64,000 bases of DNA from Lutimonas halocynthiae (lineage in GTDB: Bacteria; Bacteroidota; Bacteroidia; Flavobacteriales; Flavobacteriaceae). This document shows positions 24,390 through 31,534 of this stretch, piece by piece. A program made the position numbers and the translations under genes. Under the pieces are notes generated by a model, which was not told the origin of the DNA, made no database searches, and saw only the letters and a list, made by a program, of their open reading frames with translations. The stretch is taken from the NCBI RefSeq assembly GCF_030409835.1, contig NZ_JAUFQO010000004.1, forward strand, positions 372,001 through 436,000, given 5' to 3'. The first letter of the stretch is position 1, and each line of letters begins with the position of its first letter.

Positions 24390-25643
24390 TTATATTAAAA
24401 ATTGAAATAATTGGGGGCTGTCATTCAGGTATTCACCATAAAACCCTAATTCTTTCATTCTCTCGATTAAAGGCTGAAAATTCTGGTGGCTTTTCAATTC
24501 TATTCCTACAACCGCAGTACTTCTTGCACGACTGTTCTTTTTAGCATATTCAAAATAAGTAATATCATCAGTCTCGCCCAAAACATTTACAACAAACTCT
24601 TTCAGTGCGCCGGCCCTCTGCGGAAATGTGACCATAAAATAGTGTTTCAGGCCTTCATGCAGCATTGATCGTTCCTTGATTTCTTCCATCCGTGAGATGT
24701 CATTGTTTCCGCCACTGATGATACAGGCAATTCGTTTTCCTTTTATCTCTTCTTTATACTGGTCTAATGCGGCTACAGAAAGGGCTCCTGCCGGCTCTAC
24801 TACTATGGCCTTCTCATTGTATAGACTCAACAAGGTAGAGCAAATTTTACCTTCAGGCACCACTAACACTTTATCCACCCCATTTTTACAAATGGCAAAA
24901 GGAAGGTCTCCTATTCTTTTAACGGCAGCGCCATCAACAAATTTGTCGATATGATCAAGCGTCGTGTTTGATCCTTTTAAAAGAGAATTACTCAAAGAAG
25001 GTGCTCCTTCAGGCTCAACAGCAATAATTTTAGTATTTGGACTAGCCTTTTTAAAAACACTAATCAATCCCGAAACTAGGCCTCCGCCTCCAACGGGAAC
25101 AAATAAAAAATCTAATGGCTGATCTAAATCTTCAAGCATTTCAAGACCAACCGTTGCCTGACCTTCAATAATCTTTTCATCATCAAAAGGATGAACAAAC
25201 TCAAAATTCTTGTCTTCACAGTAGGCTCTAGCCACTTTATAGGATGCATCATAGGTATCACCTATAAGCCGTATTTCAATATGTTCTCTTCCAAACATTT
25301 TGACCTGCTGCACTTTTTGCTGAGGCGTTGTAATAGGCATAAAAATGACACCTTTTATACCCAGAAAATGACATACTTGGGCCACTCCCTGCGCATGATT
25401 TCCTGCACTTGAGCAAACTACAGTTGAAACCTCCTTATTTTCAACAAGCGAACTGATCTTATTAAAAGCACCGCGTATTTTATATGAGCGGACCCGCTGA
25501 AGATCTTCTCTTTTAAAGTAGATCTCCGCCTCATACCGCTCTGAGAAATTAGGCATTTTTATAAGCGGAGTATGCCTTACCAAATCTTTGATTCGGCTGG
25601 CTGCTTTTTCCACTTTTGCAATTTCTATATAGGTATTCAACAT
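24390..25643 (-). CDS. ilvA: Threonine dehydratase (deaminase), isoleucine pathway
   Basis: 417 residues. It turns threonine into 2-oxobutyrate, the first step to isoleucine. The PLP lysine is Lys55 (SYKIRGAF), the phosphate loop is VGGGGLVSG, and SSAGNHAQGV binds substrate. The last 85 residues (after about 330) form a single ACT-like regulatory domain, shorter than the double domain of the 514-residue E. coli enzyme but normal for this phylum. It is the last ilv gene. A hairpin with a T-run ends 8 bases before its ATG, so its expression may depend on read-through. Confidence 0.95.
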   Translation of the reverse strand: MLNTYIEIAKVEKAASRIKDLVRHTPLIKMPNFSERYEAEIYFKREDLQRVRSYKIRGAFNKISSLVENKEVSTVVCSSAGNHAQGVAQVCHFLGIKGVIFMPITTPQQKVQQVKMFGREHIEIRLIGDTYDASYKVARAYCEDKNFEFVHPFDDEKIIEGQATVGLEMLEDLDQPLDFLFVPVGGGGLVSGLISVFKKASPNTKIIAVEPEGAPSLSNSLLKGSNTTLDHIDKFVDGAAVKRIGDLPFAICKNGVDKVLVVPEGKICSTLLSLYNEKAIVVEPAGALSVAALDQYKEEIKGKRIACIISGGNNDISRMEEIKERSMLHEGLKHYFMVTFPQRAGALKEFVVNVLGETDDITYFEYAKKNSRARSTAVVGIELKSHQNFQPLIERMKELGFYGEYLNDSPQLFQFLI

Positions 25644-25652
25644 GGTATTAAA

Positions 25653-25691
25653 TTAAAAACCATCGATTTCAAGATCTTGAAATCGATGGTT
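25653..25691 (-). terminator. Perfect palindromic hairpin with T-run between ilvC and ilvA
   Basis: A perfect inverted repeat of 2 x 17 bases (25658-25674 with 25675-25691) is followed on the minus strand by five T. In practice some central pairs form the loop. It looks like a Rho-independent terminator, yet ilvA starts right after it in the same direction with no space for a promoter. It probably lowers rather than ends transcription of ilvA, or marks an mRNA processing point. Confidence 0.8.
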
Positions 25692-25725
25692 AACTCACAA
25701 AATAAGTTATTTTTCGATTCCCAGA

Positions 25726-27201
25726 CTATACAATTTTGATCATTGCTGTCATAGACTCTCTTAATTCAGACCCAATAATTTCTACCGGATGATAACGTAA
25801 TTCTTCGTTAATTGCAATTAACTCCTGGTTATCAACTCCATTACCTTTTCCTTCAGCAAATGCTTTTCCAATTACATCAACATCAATTTCTTTCATAAAA
25901 TCAGTTAGCAATGGCTTACAAGCATGATCAAACAAATAACATCCATACTCTGCTGTATCAGAAATGGTTGCATTCATTTCATATAATTTCTTACGCGCAA
26001 TTGTATTTGCGATTAAAGGAGTTTCATGTAATGATTCATAATAAGCCGATTCATCAATAATTCCTGCTTCTGTCATCGTTTCAAAAGCCAGTTCTACACC
26101 AGCTCTAACCATTGCTATCATTAAAACACCGTGATCGAAATATTCTTGTTCAGAGATCTCAACATTTCCTGCAGGTGTTTTTTCAAATGCAGTTTCACCA
26201 GTTGCTGCTCTCCAGCTCAATAGATTTTTGTCATCATTAGCCCAGTCAACCATCATCGTTTTAGAAAACTCTCCTGACATAATATCATCCATATGCTTAT
26301 GAAACAATGGTCTCATAATATCCTTTAATTCTTCAGACAATGCATAAGCTTTCACTTTAGCAGGATTAGACAAACGATCCATCATATTGGTAATTCCTCC
26401 GTGTTTCAAGGCCTCAGTTATGGTTTCCCAACCGTACTGAATTAACTTTGAAGCATATCCGGCATCTATACCTTTCTCGATCATTTTATCGAAACAAAGA
26501 ATTGATCCTGTTTGCAAAACACCACATAAAATAGTTTGCTCACCCATAAGGTCAGACTTTACTTCAGCAATAAATGAAGATTCTAAAACCCCAGCTTTAT
26601 CACCACCAGTGGCAACGGCATATGCTTTTGCCTCGGCAAGACCTCTTCCTTCCGGATCATTCTCGTTGTGCACTGCAATAAGTGTTGGCACACCAAAACC
26701 TCTCTTATATTCTTCTCTTACTTCTGATCCTGGGCTTTTAGGAGCTACCATGATCACTGTAAGATCTTCTCTTACCTGCATTCCTTCTTCAACAATATTG
26801 AAGCCATGAGAATAAGCTAAAGACGCTCCTTTTTTCATTAAGGGCATTACCGCTTCCACAACAGATGTATGTTGTTTATCAGGAGTAAGGTTACAAACAA
26901 GGTCTGCAGTTGGCACCATTTCTTCGTAAGTCCCAACACTGAAACCATTATCAGAAGCATTCTTAAAAGATTGGCGTTTGTCTTTGATGGCTCCTTCTCT
27001 CAAGGCATAAGAAATATCAAGACCAGAATCTCTCATATTTAGTCCTTGATTCAAGCCCTGAGCTCCACAGCCCACTATAACTACCTTTTTTCCTTTTAAG
27101 GCTGACACGCCCTCTGTGAATTCAGAAGGATCCATAAACCTACATTTACCTAATTGTGCCAATTGATCTCTTAACGAAAGAGTGTTAAAATAATTTGCCA
27201 T
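25726..27201 (-). CDS. ilvC: Ketol-acid reductoisomerase, class II (long form)
   Basis: 491 residues, the long form with a duplicated C-terminal domain, as in E. coli. It isomerises and reduces acetolactate and acetohydroxybutyrate, second step of valine and isoleucine synthesis, with NADPH and Mg. The Rossmann loop reads [11 protein letters not shown], and the following [16 protein letters not shown] has the Arg, Lys and Ser that favour [17 protein letters not shown] is the usual Mg/substrate region. It starts 18 bases after ilvN. Confidence 0.97.
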
Positions 27202-27219
27202 TAACTTTTGATTTATTTT

Positions 27220-27744
27220 TTAATTTAATTGTTTTCTTAATAATTCTGAAATTTTCATTTCTTCTTTGGTTACAGAAATCCTTCCTGAACGCACAAATTG
27301 CATAATGCCATAAGACAATAATTCATCATACAAGGCATCAATCTCTTCACGGCGACCTGATTTTTCAATCACAAAAAACTCGGGGGAAACTGTAACGATT
27401 TGGGCATTACTATTCTTGATTATATTTTGAATCTGTCGCTCTTCAAAAAGAAGATTCGATTTTATTTTGAATAAAGCTGATTGTAAAAAGATACATTCTT
27501 CATTCGTATGGTAATATGCCTTAATTACTTCAACTTGTTTTTCAATTTGACCAATCACTTTTTTAACTTGTTCTTCAGTGATGTCAACTACAATGATGAA
27601 TCTTGATACGTTTTCAATTTCTGATCCTGAAACGGTCAAACTTTCAACATTTATATGTCTCTTTAAAAATATAGTTGATATTCTAAGTAACAATCCAAGA
27701 TTGTTTTCTGAATATATTGATATGGTATATTTTTCTGTTTTCAT
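27220..27744 (-). CDS. ilvN: Acetolactate synthase regulatory (small) subunit
   Basis: 174 residues. N-terminal ACT domain (YTISIYSENNLGLLLRIS, then NVESLTVSGSE) that senses valine, and a C-terminal activation domain. It binds the catalytic subunit IlvB, whose gene ends 5 bases before it on the same strand. Length and gene order match other flavobacterial ilvN/ilvH genes; the choice of symbol is a convention. Confidence 0.94.
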   Translation of the reverse strand: MKTEKYTISIYSENNLGLLLRISTIFLKRHINVESLTVSGSEIENVSRFIIVVDITEEQVKKVIGQIEKQVEVIKAYYHTNEECIFLQSALFKIKSNLLFEERQIQNIIKNSNAQIVTVSPEFFVIEKSGRREEIDALYDELLSYGIMQFVRSGRISVTKEEMKISELLRKQLN

Positions 27745-27749
27745 TGCTT

Positions 27750-29492
27750 TTATTTTAATCTGATATCTGAAACACTAGAACCTGTTGGGATCATAGGGAA
27801 TACATTTTCTTCCATTTCAACCATCACTTCAAGAAAATAAGATTCTTTAGAAGCGATCATTTCATTAACAGCTTCAGAAAGTTCAGCTCTTTCAGTAACC
27901 TTTCTTGCTTTAATACTATAACCCTCGGCGATTTTAACAAAATTAGGATTTGTCATCTCGGTTGATGCATAGCGACCATCAAAAAACAATTCCTGCCATT
28001 GACGAACCATCCCTAAGAACTGATTGTTCAAAACAACAATTTTTACGGGAGCCTTAGTTTGCAATATGGTACCTAGTTCTTGTATATTCATTTGAAAACC
28101 TCCATCTCCTATAATAGCCACGACCTCTCTGTCAGGAGCTCCCATTTTAGCTCCTATAGCTGCAGGCAAGGCAAAACCCATAGTTCCCAAGCCTCCAGAA
28201 GTCACTTTACTTCTTCCTTTATTAAATTTACTAAAACGGCTAGCGATCATTTGATGCTGCCCTACATCTGAAACAATCACAGCATCTCCATCAGTAGCTT
28301 TGTTCAAAGCCATCATAGTTTCTGCCATTGTAATTCCATCGGTAGAGACATTAATCTGACCATCAATCACTTCTTTGTATTCTATATCATATAAATCCTG
28401 AAACTCTTGTTCCCAGTCTTTGTATTCTTTTTTATCTATCAAAGGTAAGATCGCAGTCAAAGTATCTTTTACATTTCCCAACACTGCAACATCCGCTTTT
28501 ACATTCTTATCAACTTCTGCCGGATCAATTTCAAAGTGTATGACCTTAGCTTGCTTGGCATAAGTAGCTAAACTTCCAGTAACCCTGTCATCAAAACGCA
28601 TACCCACAGCAATGAGCACATCGCATTCATTGGTGAGTTTGTTAGGCGCATAGTTTCCGTGCATCCCAACCATTCCTACATGCAACTCATGATCAGAAGG
28701 CAAAGCCGACAAGCCTAATAGTGTTGATGCAGATGGAATTCCTGCTTTTTCTATAAAATCTTTGAATTCAGCTTCAGCATTTCCAAGAGTCAAACCTTGA
28801 CCCCAAACAATAAAAGGTTTTTTAGCATTGTTAATGATCTCTGCAGCCTCTGCAATCTTTGCCGGTTCCATAGGAGGTACAGGATTATAACTTCTAACGT
28901 GCCTACAAGGTTTATATGTGAAATCTAATTCTCCAAATTGTGCATCCTTTGTTACATCTATTAATACCGGTCCTGGTCTTCCAGATTTTGCAATATAAAA
29001 AGCCTTTGCAAAGACCTCAGGAATTTCTGAGGCTTTGGTTATTTGATAATTCCATTTGGTTACAGGAGTCGAAATACTAATTATATCGGTTTCCTGAAAT
29101 GCATCACTACCCAACAAATGGGAACCTACCTGACCTGTAATACAAACAAGAGGAGTAGAATCAATTTGCGCATCTGCAATTCCAGTAACTAAATTGGTCG
29201 CTCCCGGGCCTGATGTTGCAATCGCAACGCCAACTTTATCGGTAACTCTTGCAAATCCCTGAGCCGCATGAATAGCACCTTGTTCATGTCTTGTTAATAC
29301 ATGTTGCAATTCCTTTTCATACTTAAACAGCTCATCGTAAACCGGCATAATCGCACCTCCGGGATAACCGTAAATAAGGTCGACATTTTCTTCCAGCAAA
29401 CATTTCACTATCGCTTCGGCTCCAGTTATTTTAACGCTCTTTTTATCTGTCACTTTCTGTGTAGATTTTGTTATTGTTTCCATAGATAACAA
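27750..29492 (-). CDS. ilvB: Acetolactate synthase catalytic (large) subunit
   Basis: 580 residues. It joins pyruvate with pyruvate or 2-oxobutyrate using thiamine diphosphate, FAD and Mg. The catalytic Glu lies in LIYGYPGGAIMPVYDEL and the ThDP motif is GDGGFQMNIQELGT...VVLNNQ. The N-terminal, central and C-terminal domains are all complete. Start may be the Met three codons further in (METITK). It follows ilvD by 18 bases and is in the same operon. Confidence 0.97.
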   Translation of the reverse strand: MLSMETITKSTQKVTDKKSVKITGAEAIVKCLLEENVDLIYGYPGGAIMPVYDELFKYEKELQHVLTRHEQGAIHAAQGFARVTDKVGVAIATSGPGATNLVTGIADAQIDSTPLVCITGQVGSHLLGSDAFQETDIISISTPVTKWNYQITKASEIPEVFAKAFYIAKSGRPGPVLIDVTKDAQFGELDFTYKPCRHVRSYNPVPPMEPAKIAEAAEIINNAKKPFIVWGQGLTLGNAEAEFKDFIEKAGIPSASTLLGLSALPSDHELHVGMVGMHGNYAPNKLTNECDVLIAVGMRFDDRVTGSLATYAKQAKVIHFEIDPAEVDKNVKADVAVLGNVKDTLTAILPLIDKKEYKDWEQEFQDLYDIEYKEVIDGQINVSTDGITMAETMMALNKATDGDAVIVSDVGQHQMIASRFSKFNKGRSKVTSGGLGTMGFALPAAIGAKMGAPDREVVAIIGDGGFQMNIQELGTILQTKAPVKIVVLNNQFLGMVRQWQELFFDGRYASTEMTNPNFVKIAEGYSIKARKVTERAELSEAVNEMIASKESYFLEVMVEMEENVFPMIPTGSSVSDIRLK

Positions 29493-29510: not shown

Positions 29511-31196
29511 TTAAAACTTGTCTGTCACGCAACCTTCAGATGCAGAAGAGACTGTTTTTGCATATTTATATAAAATTCCTTTTGTGTGTTTAGGAGCCGG
29601 AGCTGCCCACTCTGACTTCCTTTTTGTGATTTCCTCGGCGCTCAGATCAGCGTCAATTTTATTATTGGCAGCATCAATAGTGATCACATCTCCATCCTTC
29701 AATAAACCGATCAGACCGCCTGATTGTGCCTCTGGAGTTATATGACCCACAACAAAGCCATGTGTACCACCTGAAAATCTACCATCAGTAATTAATGCAA
29801 CTGTTTTTCCTAATCCGGCACCCATAATCATTGAAGTTGGTTTCAACATTTCTGGCATCCCAGGACCTCCTCTAGGTCCTACGTAGCGAATAACCACTAC
29901 ATCACCTTTTGATACCCGTCCAGCTCCTATGCCATCATTCGCTTCTTGTTCACCATCAAAAACAACGGCTTTTCCTTTGAATAAATTTCCTTCCTTTCCA
30001 CTGATCTTCGCCACTGAACCTTCAGCTGCAAGATTGCCAAAAAGGATCTGTAAATTACCAGATGATTTTAACGGATCTTTAGTTGAATGAATAACCTTTT
30101 GGTCTTCCTCAAAGCTAAGTGCTTTAATATCCTTAAGATTTTCTGCTAAAGTTTTTCCAGTAACAGTCATACAGTCACCGTGCAAATATCCACCGTCAAG
30201 CAGATACTTCATAACAGCCGGAGTACCTCCGACCCCATGCACATCTTCCATTAAATATTCTCCACTAGGCTTTAGGTCAGCTATCAAGGGAGTACGATCA
30301 CTTACGCGCTGAAAATCATCAAGTGTAAACTCAATATCTGCAGCATGAGCAATGGCCAGGAAATGCAAAACTGCATTGGTTGAACCACCAAGTGCATTAA
30401 CTAAAGCCACGGCATTCTCAAGAGATTTTTTTGTTATGATATCCAAAGGCTTCAAATCAAGTTCTAACAGATTTTTGATGGCCGCAGCAATTCTGCTACT
30501 TTCATCTTCCTTATGAGGGTTCTCTGCTGGAATTGATGAATTATAAGGCAAGGCAAAACCCATAGCCTCGATTGAAGATGCCATGGTATTAGCCGTGTAC
30601 ATCCCTCCACAAGCTCCTGCTCCCGGAATGGCACTTTTAATTATATCTTTATATTCTTCATCAGATATCTCACCTGATATCTTCTGGCCCAATGCCTCAA
30701 ATGCCGATACGATATTCAATTTACGTCCTTTGTAACTTCCTGAAGCTATCGTTCCTCCATAAACCATAAGAGAAGGTCTGTTCAATCTAAGCATCGCCAT
30801 AATCGCTCCTGGCATATTTTTATCACATCCTACTACAGATACAAGTGCATCATAACTTTGAGCATTCATGACTACCTCTATAGAATCTGCAATAATATCT
30901 CTAGATGGTAAGGAATAATTCATACCGCTGGTACCCATAGAAATACCATCACTAACACCAATGGTATTAAAAACCAATCCTACTTGATCTTTCTTGTTTA
31001 CTTCTGCTTTTATACCCGCTGCCAAATTATTCAAATGCATATTGCATGGGTTACCATCGTAACCTGTACTTGCAATACCCACCTGAGGTTTCTGCATATC
31101 ATCATCATTCAGGCCCACTGCGTACAACATGGCTTGTGCTGCAGGTTGTGTTGCATCTTGCGTTAATCTTTGGCTGTGCTTATTTAATCGCTTCAT
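29511..31196 (-). CDS. ilvD: Dihydroxy-acid dehydratase
   Basis: 561 residues, normal length. It dehydrates the dihydroxy acids of valine and isoleucine synthesis with an Fe-S cluster. Cluster and Mg ligands are visible in GCDKNMPGA and [13 protein letters not shown]; other family motifs are [12 protein letters not shown] and [11 protein letters not shown]. It is the first structural gene of the ilv operon. The 344-base leader in front of it carries the attenuator described separately. Confidence 0.97.
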
Positions 31197-31390
31197 TAAT
31201 AAGTAAGGTCTATTTGTTTATATTGATATTCTTTTATTAAAATCAATTATTTTTTAAATAATCATCAAAAATAAAAAGGCTTTAACCGTTTCTTGATTTC
31301 TTATTTATTTTATTACAACATTCAACACAACAAGAGAGCAACTTAACAACTGATATTCAAATACTTAATTACTCTAATTTACAAGGTTTA
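31197..31390 (-). other. Leader segment between attenuator and ilvD
   Basis: Second part of the 344-base gap before ilvD. It is AT-rich with no reading frame, hairpin or exact TAnnTTTG box that I can support, so it is read as the 3' part of the ilv 5' UTR. Its length, about 190 bases after the terminator, is more than attenuation needs. Confidence 0.5.
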
Positions 31391-31420
31391 ACAAAAAAAA
31401 AACCTTCCATAAGGAAGGTT
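31391..31420 (-). terminator. Attenuator terminator of the ilv leader
   Basis: On the minus strand AACCTTCC (31420-31413), loop TTAT, and GGAAGGTT (31408-31401) form an 8-bp perfect stem followed by a run of at least eight more T. It lies 27 bases past the leader-peptide stop. An alternative pairing (AGGAAG 31449-31444 with CTTCCT 31417-31412) uses the same left arm and would stop it forming. Confidence 0.88.
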
Positions 31421-31447
31421 CATATGATCTTATAACATTAGCACTTC

Positions 31448-31510
31448 CTATCCAATTCCAATTGAACTTAAAATAATGACAGTGACTAAAATTATATTGT
31501 TATATTTCAT
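31448..31510 (-). CDS. ilv operon leader peptide (20 residues, Ile/Leu/Val-rich)
   Basis: ATG at 31510 to TAG at 31448 codes for MKYNNIILVTVIILSSIGIG. Six Ile, two Leu, two Val and one Thr make up more than half of the peptide, all end-products or precursors of the operon that follows. It starts 16 bases after a TAGTTTTG promoter box and is followed by a terminator. Its stop codon overlaps the 5' strand of the antiterminator, so a ribosome that reaches the stop would block that pairing. This is the layout of E. coli-type leader peptides that measure charged tRNA. Too short for routine gene calling. Confidence 0.8.
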   Translation of the reverse strand: MKYNNIILVTVIILSSIGIG

Positions 31511-31526
31511 GATGTTAAATATGGAT

Positions 31527-31534
31527 CAAAACTA
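31527..31534 (-). promoter_or_regulatory. -7 promoter element of the ilv operon leader
   Basis: TAGTTTTG on the minus strand, an exact TAnnTTTG match, 16 bases before the leader ATG. A weak GTTT near 31549-31552 could be the -33 element. Transcription would start about ten bases before the leader peptide, so the attenuator is transcribed first. Confidence 0.55.

Follow-up and report, generated by a model that had tools for sequence, protein, structure and literature searches.

The window (the whole stretch of 64,000 nucleotides of Lutimonas halocynthiae DNA analysed here) carries on its minus strand a presumed operon headed by ilvD. Upstream of it lie a short open reading frame with its own start and stop codons and, between that frame and the first gene, an intrinsic terminator (Table 1). 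The assignment of ilvD is backed by the genes in the same position in two relatives, which are ilvD by NCBIfam; the identity of ilvA was also checked by NCBIfam, and the remaining frames behind ilvD we take to be ilvB, ilvN and ilvC. Further upstream, a gene on the same strand (33085-31541) ends 6 nt before the promoter box P1, and frames located on the other strand are presumably leuA- and leuB-like genes. The nearest named database records belong to uncultured Flavobacteriaceae and to Lutimonas saemankumensis.

Table 1. Features of the ilv leader region and operon in the window, with a Met-rich leader from elsewhere in the same genome
Feature	Position	Strand	Basis or remark
P1, -7 promoter box TAGTTTTG	31534-31527	minus	exact TAnnTTTG
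Leader peptide ORF, MKYNNIILVTVIILSSIGIG then stop; 20 codons, 10 of them Ile/Leu/Val	31448..31510	minus	window sequence
Leader ATG	31510	minus	
Leader stop codon TAG	31450-31448	minus	
Region 1, CTGTC, codons 10-11; 5' arm of protector helix 1:2	31478..31482	minus	fold of L001 (identical to the window)
Region 2, GATAGGAAG, spanning the stop codon; partner is region 1 or region 3	31444..31452	minus	fold and pairing tests
AGGAAG within region 2	31449-31444	minus	
Region 3, CTTCCT; partner is AGGAAG of region 2 (antiterminator) or region 4	31412..31417	minus	
Intrinsic terminator 3:4 plus T-run	31393..31420	minus	predicted -11.2 kcal/mol
Terminator arms AACCTTCC and GGAAGGTT, loop TTAT	31420-31413 and 31408-31401, T-run to 31393	minus	
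TTGTAA, upstream member of the pair (66 bp apart)	31379..31384	minus	
TTGTAA, downstream copy of the pair	31313..31318	minus	
P2, promoter-like -7 box TATTTTTG, 3' of the terminator; predicted bypass start	31266..31273	minus	
ilvD, first gene of the presumed operon	29511..31196	minus	ORF and IlvD matches, identity up to 93%
ilvB, ilvN, ilvC, ilvA, remainder of the presumed operon	24390..29492	minus	ORFs; co-transcription assumed
Met-rich leader and terminator (L221 / L234)	C16:1061896-1062031	minus	own genome

An earlier note on this DNA had described the P1 box, the leader peptide with its stop codon, the AGGAAG motif and the terminator, and all of these were recovered in place when the window sequence was checked. 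The sequence TAnnTTTG, to which P1 conforms, is taken here as the consensus of the -7 promoter element. The combination of leader and terminator before ilvD is not a product of chance. The scan called for an ATG-initiated frame of 12-32 codons with at least 45% Ile, Leu or Val and a terminator within 10-45 nt. Over both strands of the window, which has 10 terminators in all, the combination occurs once, and 20 dinucleotide-preserving shuffles of the window gave a mean of 0.8 terminators and no leader plus terminator combination.

Conservation of the leader and its competing helices

An IlvD protein is present in 93 of 149 relatives. The regions upstream of ilvD (48 + 70 loci) comprised 102 distinct sequences after removal of duplicates, a set that includes a Nocardia outlier (L078) and some regions ended by a contig edge, L071 being excluded for lack of a usable start. 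A regular expression for the terminator found 55 regions with type A, the type of the window (CCTTCC..GGAAGG and variants), and 18 with type B (CCTGTATC..GATACAGG), while 38 had neither. From the 55, L003 and L024 were dropped since they have no leader with at least six Ile, Leu or Val; L005, L022 and L112 were also set aside for the alignment and codon counts, leaving 50 type A units; for the pairing tests (n=46), L015, L065 and L073 were additionally set aside and duplicates removed. Covariance models were built from 33 type A units (R1) and from the 18 type B units (R2).

The comparison of regions before ilvD in related flavobacteria, as proposed in the earlier note, bears out its expectation in that the Ile/Val frame and the terminator are conserved in many relatives. 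Conservation among the closest relatives is incomplete: R1 matches 12 of 18 same-genus ilvD loci (E<1e-5), so the attenuator is not universal even there. The six loci lacking a match at that threshold are L003, L005, L010, L011, L024 and L083, of which L003 and L005 keep a CCTT-type hairpin with no clear leader. Among 100 ilvD loci, 57 match R1 at E<1e-5, including 24 that did not contribute to the model; 23 score at least 55 bits with R2, and 15 of these 23 have a type A unit as well. By hand count from the tables, 35 of the 100 match neither model at these cut-offs, some of them being incomplete and two (L015, L073) having weaker R1 matches. Of 299 genomes of the family, 105 have an R1 match and 67 an R2 match at any locus (E<=0.001), loci L119-L178 from this search being counted as model matches.

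Of 295 genomes of the class, nine match R1 and seven R2 (E<=1e-4), of which four and three, respectively, lie outside the family. Here, with gene names assigned by eye, short Ile/Val leaders precede an ilvB-like gene (L275, L284) and an ilvE-like gene (L276), and an Ile/Thr leader precedes an aspartokinase-like gene (L274); L272 has an Ile-rich leader, and L282 resembles a plain terminator. Because leaders of the Ile/Val type are found beyond the family, attenuation probably extends into the wider class, sparsely as judged by these two models.

Ten of the 20 codons of the window's leader are for Ile, Leu or Val. On average a type A leader (50 units) contains 6.0 Ile, 2.5 Val and 1.1 Leu, and a type B leader 5.8 Ile, 2.4 Val and 1.8 Leu. 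Codons of the type A frame that differ by a single change show a modest excess of synonymous differences (372 against 254 expected). An excess is also seen in the +1 frame (312 against 242) and none in the +2 frame (158 against 188), so a coding constraint is visible yet mixed with constraint on the RNA. Type B leaders show no synonymous excess (13 against 12.8 expected).

The earlier note had anticipated covariation in both hairpins, which is clear for the terminator and depends on the test for the antiterminator. All shuffle and permutation statistics given here for the helices ignore phylogeny. In the type A terminator (33 units), 96.7% of cells are paired and 13 cells carry two-sided changes, neither figure being reached in 500 shuffles; two-sided changes affect 4 of 10 pairs (2/500 shuffles as good), and the number of pair types is equalled in 1/500. 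For comparison, the type B terminator (18 units) has 95.8% of cells paired and 16 cells with two-sided changes (each 0/500), such changes in 5 of 12 pairs (8/500), and an unexceptional number of pair types (220/500).

The pairing of AGGAAG with CTTCCT as an antiterminator that shares the 5' arm of the terminator, also put forward in the earlier note, was assessed through the best duplex energy of regions 2 and 3. Each region pairs better with its own partner than with those of other species: own pairs average -9.72 and permuted ones -8.63 (sd 0.23; n=53), and after the set-asides and removal of duplicates the averages are -10.52 and -9.43 (0/5000 permutations, n=46). Inspection by eye reveals compensating forms such as AUGGAAG/CUUCCAU (L106), GAGGAA/UUCCUC (L079) and AGGGAA/UUCCCU (L029), to be compared with UUAGGAA/UUCCUAA in Lutibacter. 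On the fixed columns of a MAFFT alignment there is no such signal (66.8% paired against 67.1% in shuffles). Allowing a slide of one column raises the paired fraction to 85.1%, and the failure of the fixed-column test is attributed to clades lying out of register in that alignment. With a stricter register fixed on the consensus the signal is moderate (paired cells 20/2000, two-sided changes 26/2000, pair types 139/2000). The antiterminator has strong register-free support, moderate support in the consensus register and none on fixed columns.

A protector helix 1:2 over the end of the leader, not named in the earlier note, is supported in type A units, where own partners average -8.68 against -7.18 for permuted ones (0/5000, n=46). 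Two competing helices, 1:2 and 2:3, are accordingly indicated on statistical grounds by the register-free tests. In type B units helix 2:3 is weak (128/5000) and helix 1:2 unsupported (2316/5000). Since the window's terminator is predicted to be more stable than its 2:3 helix (-11.2 against -5.8), antitermination would need a kinetic advantage.

Promoter-like boxes on both sides of the terminator

Of the 50 type A units, 39 have a relaxed form of the box, [ACT]AnnTTTG, in the 30 nt preceding the leader ATG (shuffles: mean 2.7, maximum 9), and 11 have the exact TAnnTTTG within 45 nt (mean 2.4, maximum 9). As only 6-22 nt separate the G of the relaxed box from the ATG, the leader mRNA is predicted to have almost no 5' UTR. 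The relaxed box precedes just 1 of 18 type B leaders, as would be expected if a unit ahead of them supplied the promoter; loci with type B only are without a recognised promoter.

A second box, P2, bears on how far the operon depends on the attenuator. Transcription might be driven mainly from P2, with a transcription factor acting at the TTGTAA pair and the attenuator real but minor, a reading that we consider tenable though on the doubtful side. In 47 of 63 loci the exact box falls between ilvD and the terminator nearest to it (shuffles: mean 8.6, maximum 15), and in all eight of the closest relatives it stands at -77/-78 from ilvD; two of these eight (L003 and L005) have no clear leader and no R1 match. 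It is found, too, in 17 of 37 loci without a unit recognised by the regular expression (mean 3.1, maximum 9), or 12 of 29, by hand count, once eight loci matched by the covariance models are removed. Two TTGTAA copies 66-67 bp apart accompany 29 of 64 loci with a unit recognised by the regular expression (mean 0.01, maximum 1), these loci being non-independent through shared ancestry. Against a dominant P2, no -33 element could be picked out by eye before it in the sequences inspected, and the attenuator is conserved in both helices and codons, which implies that it must matter in some condition.

As the P2 box beyond the terminator is conserved, a start that escapes attenuation is likely, and the attenuator would then govern only transcripts from P1. 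The TTGTAA pair and P2 are together predicted to form a promoter with a putative regulator site. Control of ilv by the attenuator, the central claim of the earlier note, is supported, with the qualification that it is probably not the sole control. That note had counted a transcription start downstream of 31390 against its interpretation, and the predicted P2, lying there, comes close to such a case. The segment 31384-31266 (minus strand), with the TTGTAA pair and the promoter-like box, is conserved within the genus and at many loci of Lutibacter.

Tandem units and leaders with other codons

In 27 of the 299 family genomes an R2 match follows an R1 match on the same strand, type A first, with starts 116-280 nt apart; a weak R1 match overlapping the B unit in G339 was read as a cross-hit. 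Of the 20 tandems checked, 18 have an IlvD match downstream and two an IlvE-like gene (L105 and L199, the latter named by eye, the query having been its own protein). Three units, in the order A-B-B, are present in two genomes, L199 and L200. The genome of the window has type A only, with no R2 match at E<=0.001. The two B units of L199 are nearly alike and look like a recent duplication. An additional A/B pair in L202 (G302) has starts 805 nt apart, and the intervening DNA contains repetitive sequence and a run of N.

Twenty further R1/R2 matches were fetched and classified. Ten have a poly-Asn leader, for example MRNNNNNNNFNNPNT, before a 466-residue protein. From its length this had been thought an asparaginyl-tRNA synthetase, which was ruled out: examined in L180, it is a GatA-like amidase (431.6 bits, below the gatA cut-off of 481.1). 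The others include an HHHHSH leader before hisG, a TTTTTT leader and an Ile/Thr leader each before thrA, an Ile leader before ilvA and two Ile/Val leaders whose next gene is ilvD (according to NCBIfam in L190 and to length only in L193). The leader before ilvD in L188, RRRYDYSIMIG, has no Ile/Val runs and is an unexplained departure from the codon rule. Three type B matches are probably ordinary terminators, L196 being without a downstream ORF, L197 preceding a weak LapA-aminopeptidase match and L198 a protein without a family.

In the genome of the window, hisG is preceded by a His leader, MRTNTLHRHHIHTCTQAS (HRHHIH; L265, about 1337-1450), and then a terminator, AAAACCCGTTTGA..TCAGGCGGGTTTT. 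A gene of family PF01053, presumably metY, follows a leader MKNIKLNMVKMMMRNITQRICML (MMM) with a CCTCTG..CAGAGG terminator (R1, E=0.0034), a possible methionine leader-peptide attenuator. Hand counting of 30 regions upstream of the metY-like gene gave 14 with a short frame of at least three Met and a CCTCTG-type terminator (CTTCTG in L256), two more of the 30 being ended by contig edges. Matches to SAM or SAM-II riboswitches in six of seven Met-leader loci scanned (the exception is L257) indicate control by SAM nearby as well. There is mixed evidence on whether a second leader-like frame before the metY-like gene represents a tandem Met unit. In L234 the stretch from the Met-leader terminator to the metY-like gene contains a long inverted repeat, AGGTATTGCCAA..TTGGCAATACCT, that surrounds a frame of the MIRYC type, and some relatives have a second terminator after that part of the locus. 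No leader or terminator was found upstream of thrA in the window's genome. Four weaker R1 matches in this genome were rejected by eye: C16:103519 and C16:103729 lie between convergent genes and lack an Ile/Val leader, and C1:460481 and C15:151469 look like ordinary terminators.

Codons that match the pathway of the downstream gene are what attenuation predicts. They also bear on the proposal that the hairpin is merely the terminator of the gene at 33085-31541 and the short frame a chance ORF in AT-rich DNA. The position of that gene, on the same strand and ending just before P1, fits such an arrangement, as do L003 and L005 with a hairpin and no clear leader. Nevertheless, a promoter-like box sits between the gene and the leader, an Ile/Val frame with its stop codon in region 2 recurs in many relatives, helices 1:2 and 2:3 favour their own partners, a second leader and terminator closely follow the first in the tandems, and codons match his, met-type and thr genes elsewhere, all of which renders the proposal improbable. 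More improbable still is that the peptide itself acts, in trans or as a small membrane peptide, with incidental hairpins: hydrophobic peptides of 20 residues could insert into membranes and peTrpL is reportedly a trans-acting leader peptide (PMC7298713), but a change of codons with the regulated pathway (His, Met, Thr, Asn) is unexpected of a membrane peptide. T-boxes and riboswitches control these kinds of gene in other phyla, yet the whole window holds no Rfam match at gathering thresholds and the roughly 130 nt of the unit are filled by the ORF and its alternating helices, leaving hardly any likelihood that such an element replaces a ribosome-sensed leader. Switches from T-box to leader peptide are described in passages of PMC2965389.

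Proposed mechanism and its precedents

The anatomy and conservation of the unit and, statistically, its competing helices can be read from the sequences compared. We put at about 90% the probability that it works by classical ribosome-mediated attenuation of the trp/ilv kind, sensing the charging of Ile- and Val-tRNA; start sites, translation, stalling and the direction of the response we infer. Transcription would start just past the P1 box and the leader peptide would be translated at once. With charged Ile-tRNA and Val-tRNA available, the ribosome would reach the stop codon and cover region 2, whereupon region 3 would pair with region 4 and RNA polymerase terminate at the T-run. When Ile or Val is short, the ribosome would stall in the run of Ile/Val codons and mask region 1, freeing region 2 for region 3 (AGGAAG with CTTCCT), so that no terminator would form and the ilv operon would be read. 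If there were no translation, helix 1:2 would form, with termination following. P2 probably yields a basal, unattenuated transcript. The ilv genes are thus most likely switched on only when branched-chain amino acids run short.

Enterobacteria furnished the textbook case of leader-peptide attenuation, which is well known there for the ilv operons ilvGMEDA and ilvBN. As in those operons, the window has a leader with branched-chain codons, alternating helices 1:2, 2:3 and 3:4, a terminator and an ilv operon behind. The likeness is one of layout, and the window's unit differs in the near absence of a predicted 5' UTR, in a second promoter-like box downstream and in the tandem units of relatives. 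Its stop codon lies inside the antiterminator strand, a possible further difference. Translation in the phylum Bacteroidota mostly starts without Shine-Dalgarno sequences, and the comparative evidence places attenuation, helices included, in such a phylum and yields a model of amino-acid control in flavobacteria that can be tested.

The Escherichia coli precedent is mentioned in PMC10272879, which in the portions consulted describes attenuators of Corynebacterium ilvBNC (motifs ilvB-OMG/ilvB) that also have a uORF rich in branched-chain codons before the ilv operon, and a terminator; they differ in phylum, in gene order (ilvB first) and in the RNA. Neither 'Bacteroidetes' nor 'Flavobacter' occurs in its main text. 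Closer to the window in taxonomy, being of the same family or phylum, are Flavobacterium psychrophilum, for which passages of PMC9723704 report 'strong clues' of attenuation by leader peptides ahead of amino-acid operons, and Bacteroides thetaiotaomicron, with leader-like sORFs according to passages of PMC7366714; 'ilv' is absent from the main texts of both. Tandem attenuators are known, from the parts of PMC3641672 consulted, in Salmonella mgtCBR, whose single leader RNA has two leader ORFs, responding to ATP and proline. In the flavobacterial tandems each unit seems instead to be an entire amino-acid attenuator, terminator included; the window has one unit.

Among the matches listed in a literature search with subscription journals outside its coverage, no title or abstract concerned ilv leader attenuation in Bacteroidetes, and none concerned Met or Asn leader peptides or tandem ilv arrays. 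Lopatovskaya et al. 2010 (Mol Biol 44:128) may cover Bacteroidetes. The kind of attenuation is already known; what looks new is the tandem arrays and the leaders with Met or Asn codons. With two units in tandem, a single leader could combine two readings of branched-chain tRNA charging, and the Met and Asn versions would lengthen the list of amino acids sensed by leader peptides. We lean towards viewing these units as an exchangeable attenuator family of the Flavobacteriaceae. Its members would share one layout, with the stop codon at or inside the antiterminator strand, and carry whichever codons fit the gene that follows, be they Ile/Val, His, Thr, Met or Asn. They would stand two or three to an ilv leader in tandems, A before B, and would include Met-sensing and Asn-sensing forms, the latter before an apparent tRNA-dependent asparagine operon with a GatB-AspRS fusion.

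In one genome (G054) the poly-Asn leader operon spans L264:1392-6538, similar poly-Asn units occurring in L179-L184, L186, L187, L189 and L194. The operon of this one genome encodes a GatC-like protein (20.8 bits, below the Pfam cut-off of 23), the GatA-like amidase and a protein of 1112 residues in which GatB domains are joined to a class II (D/K/N) tRNA synthetase with a GAD domain; judged by these domains, it looks like a GatB-AspRS-like fusion. The poly-Asn operon looks like an inducible second route to Asn-tRNA. All 20 genomes searched for the synthetase also have an AsnRS above the family cut-off. The synthetase match falls in an open frame of 1115-1121 residues in 13 of them and is absent from the other seven, the 13 being the ten in which a poly-Asn leader was read together with G252, G292 and G343.
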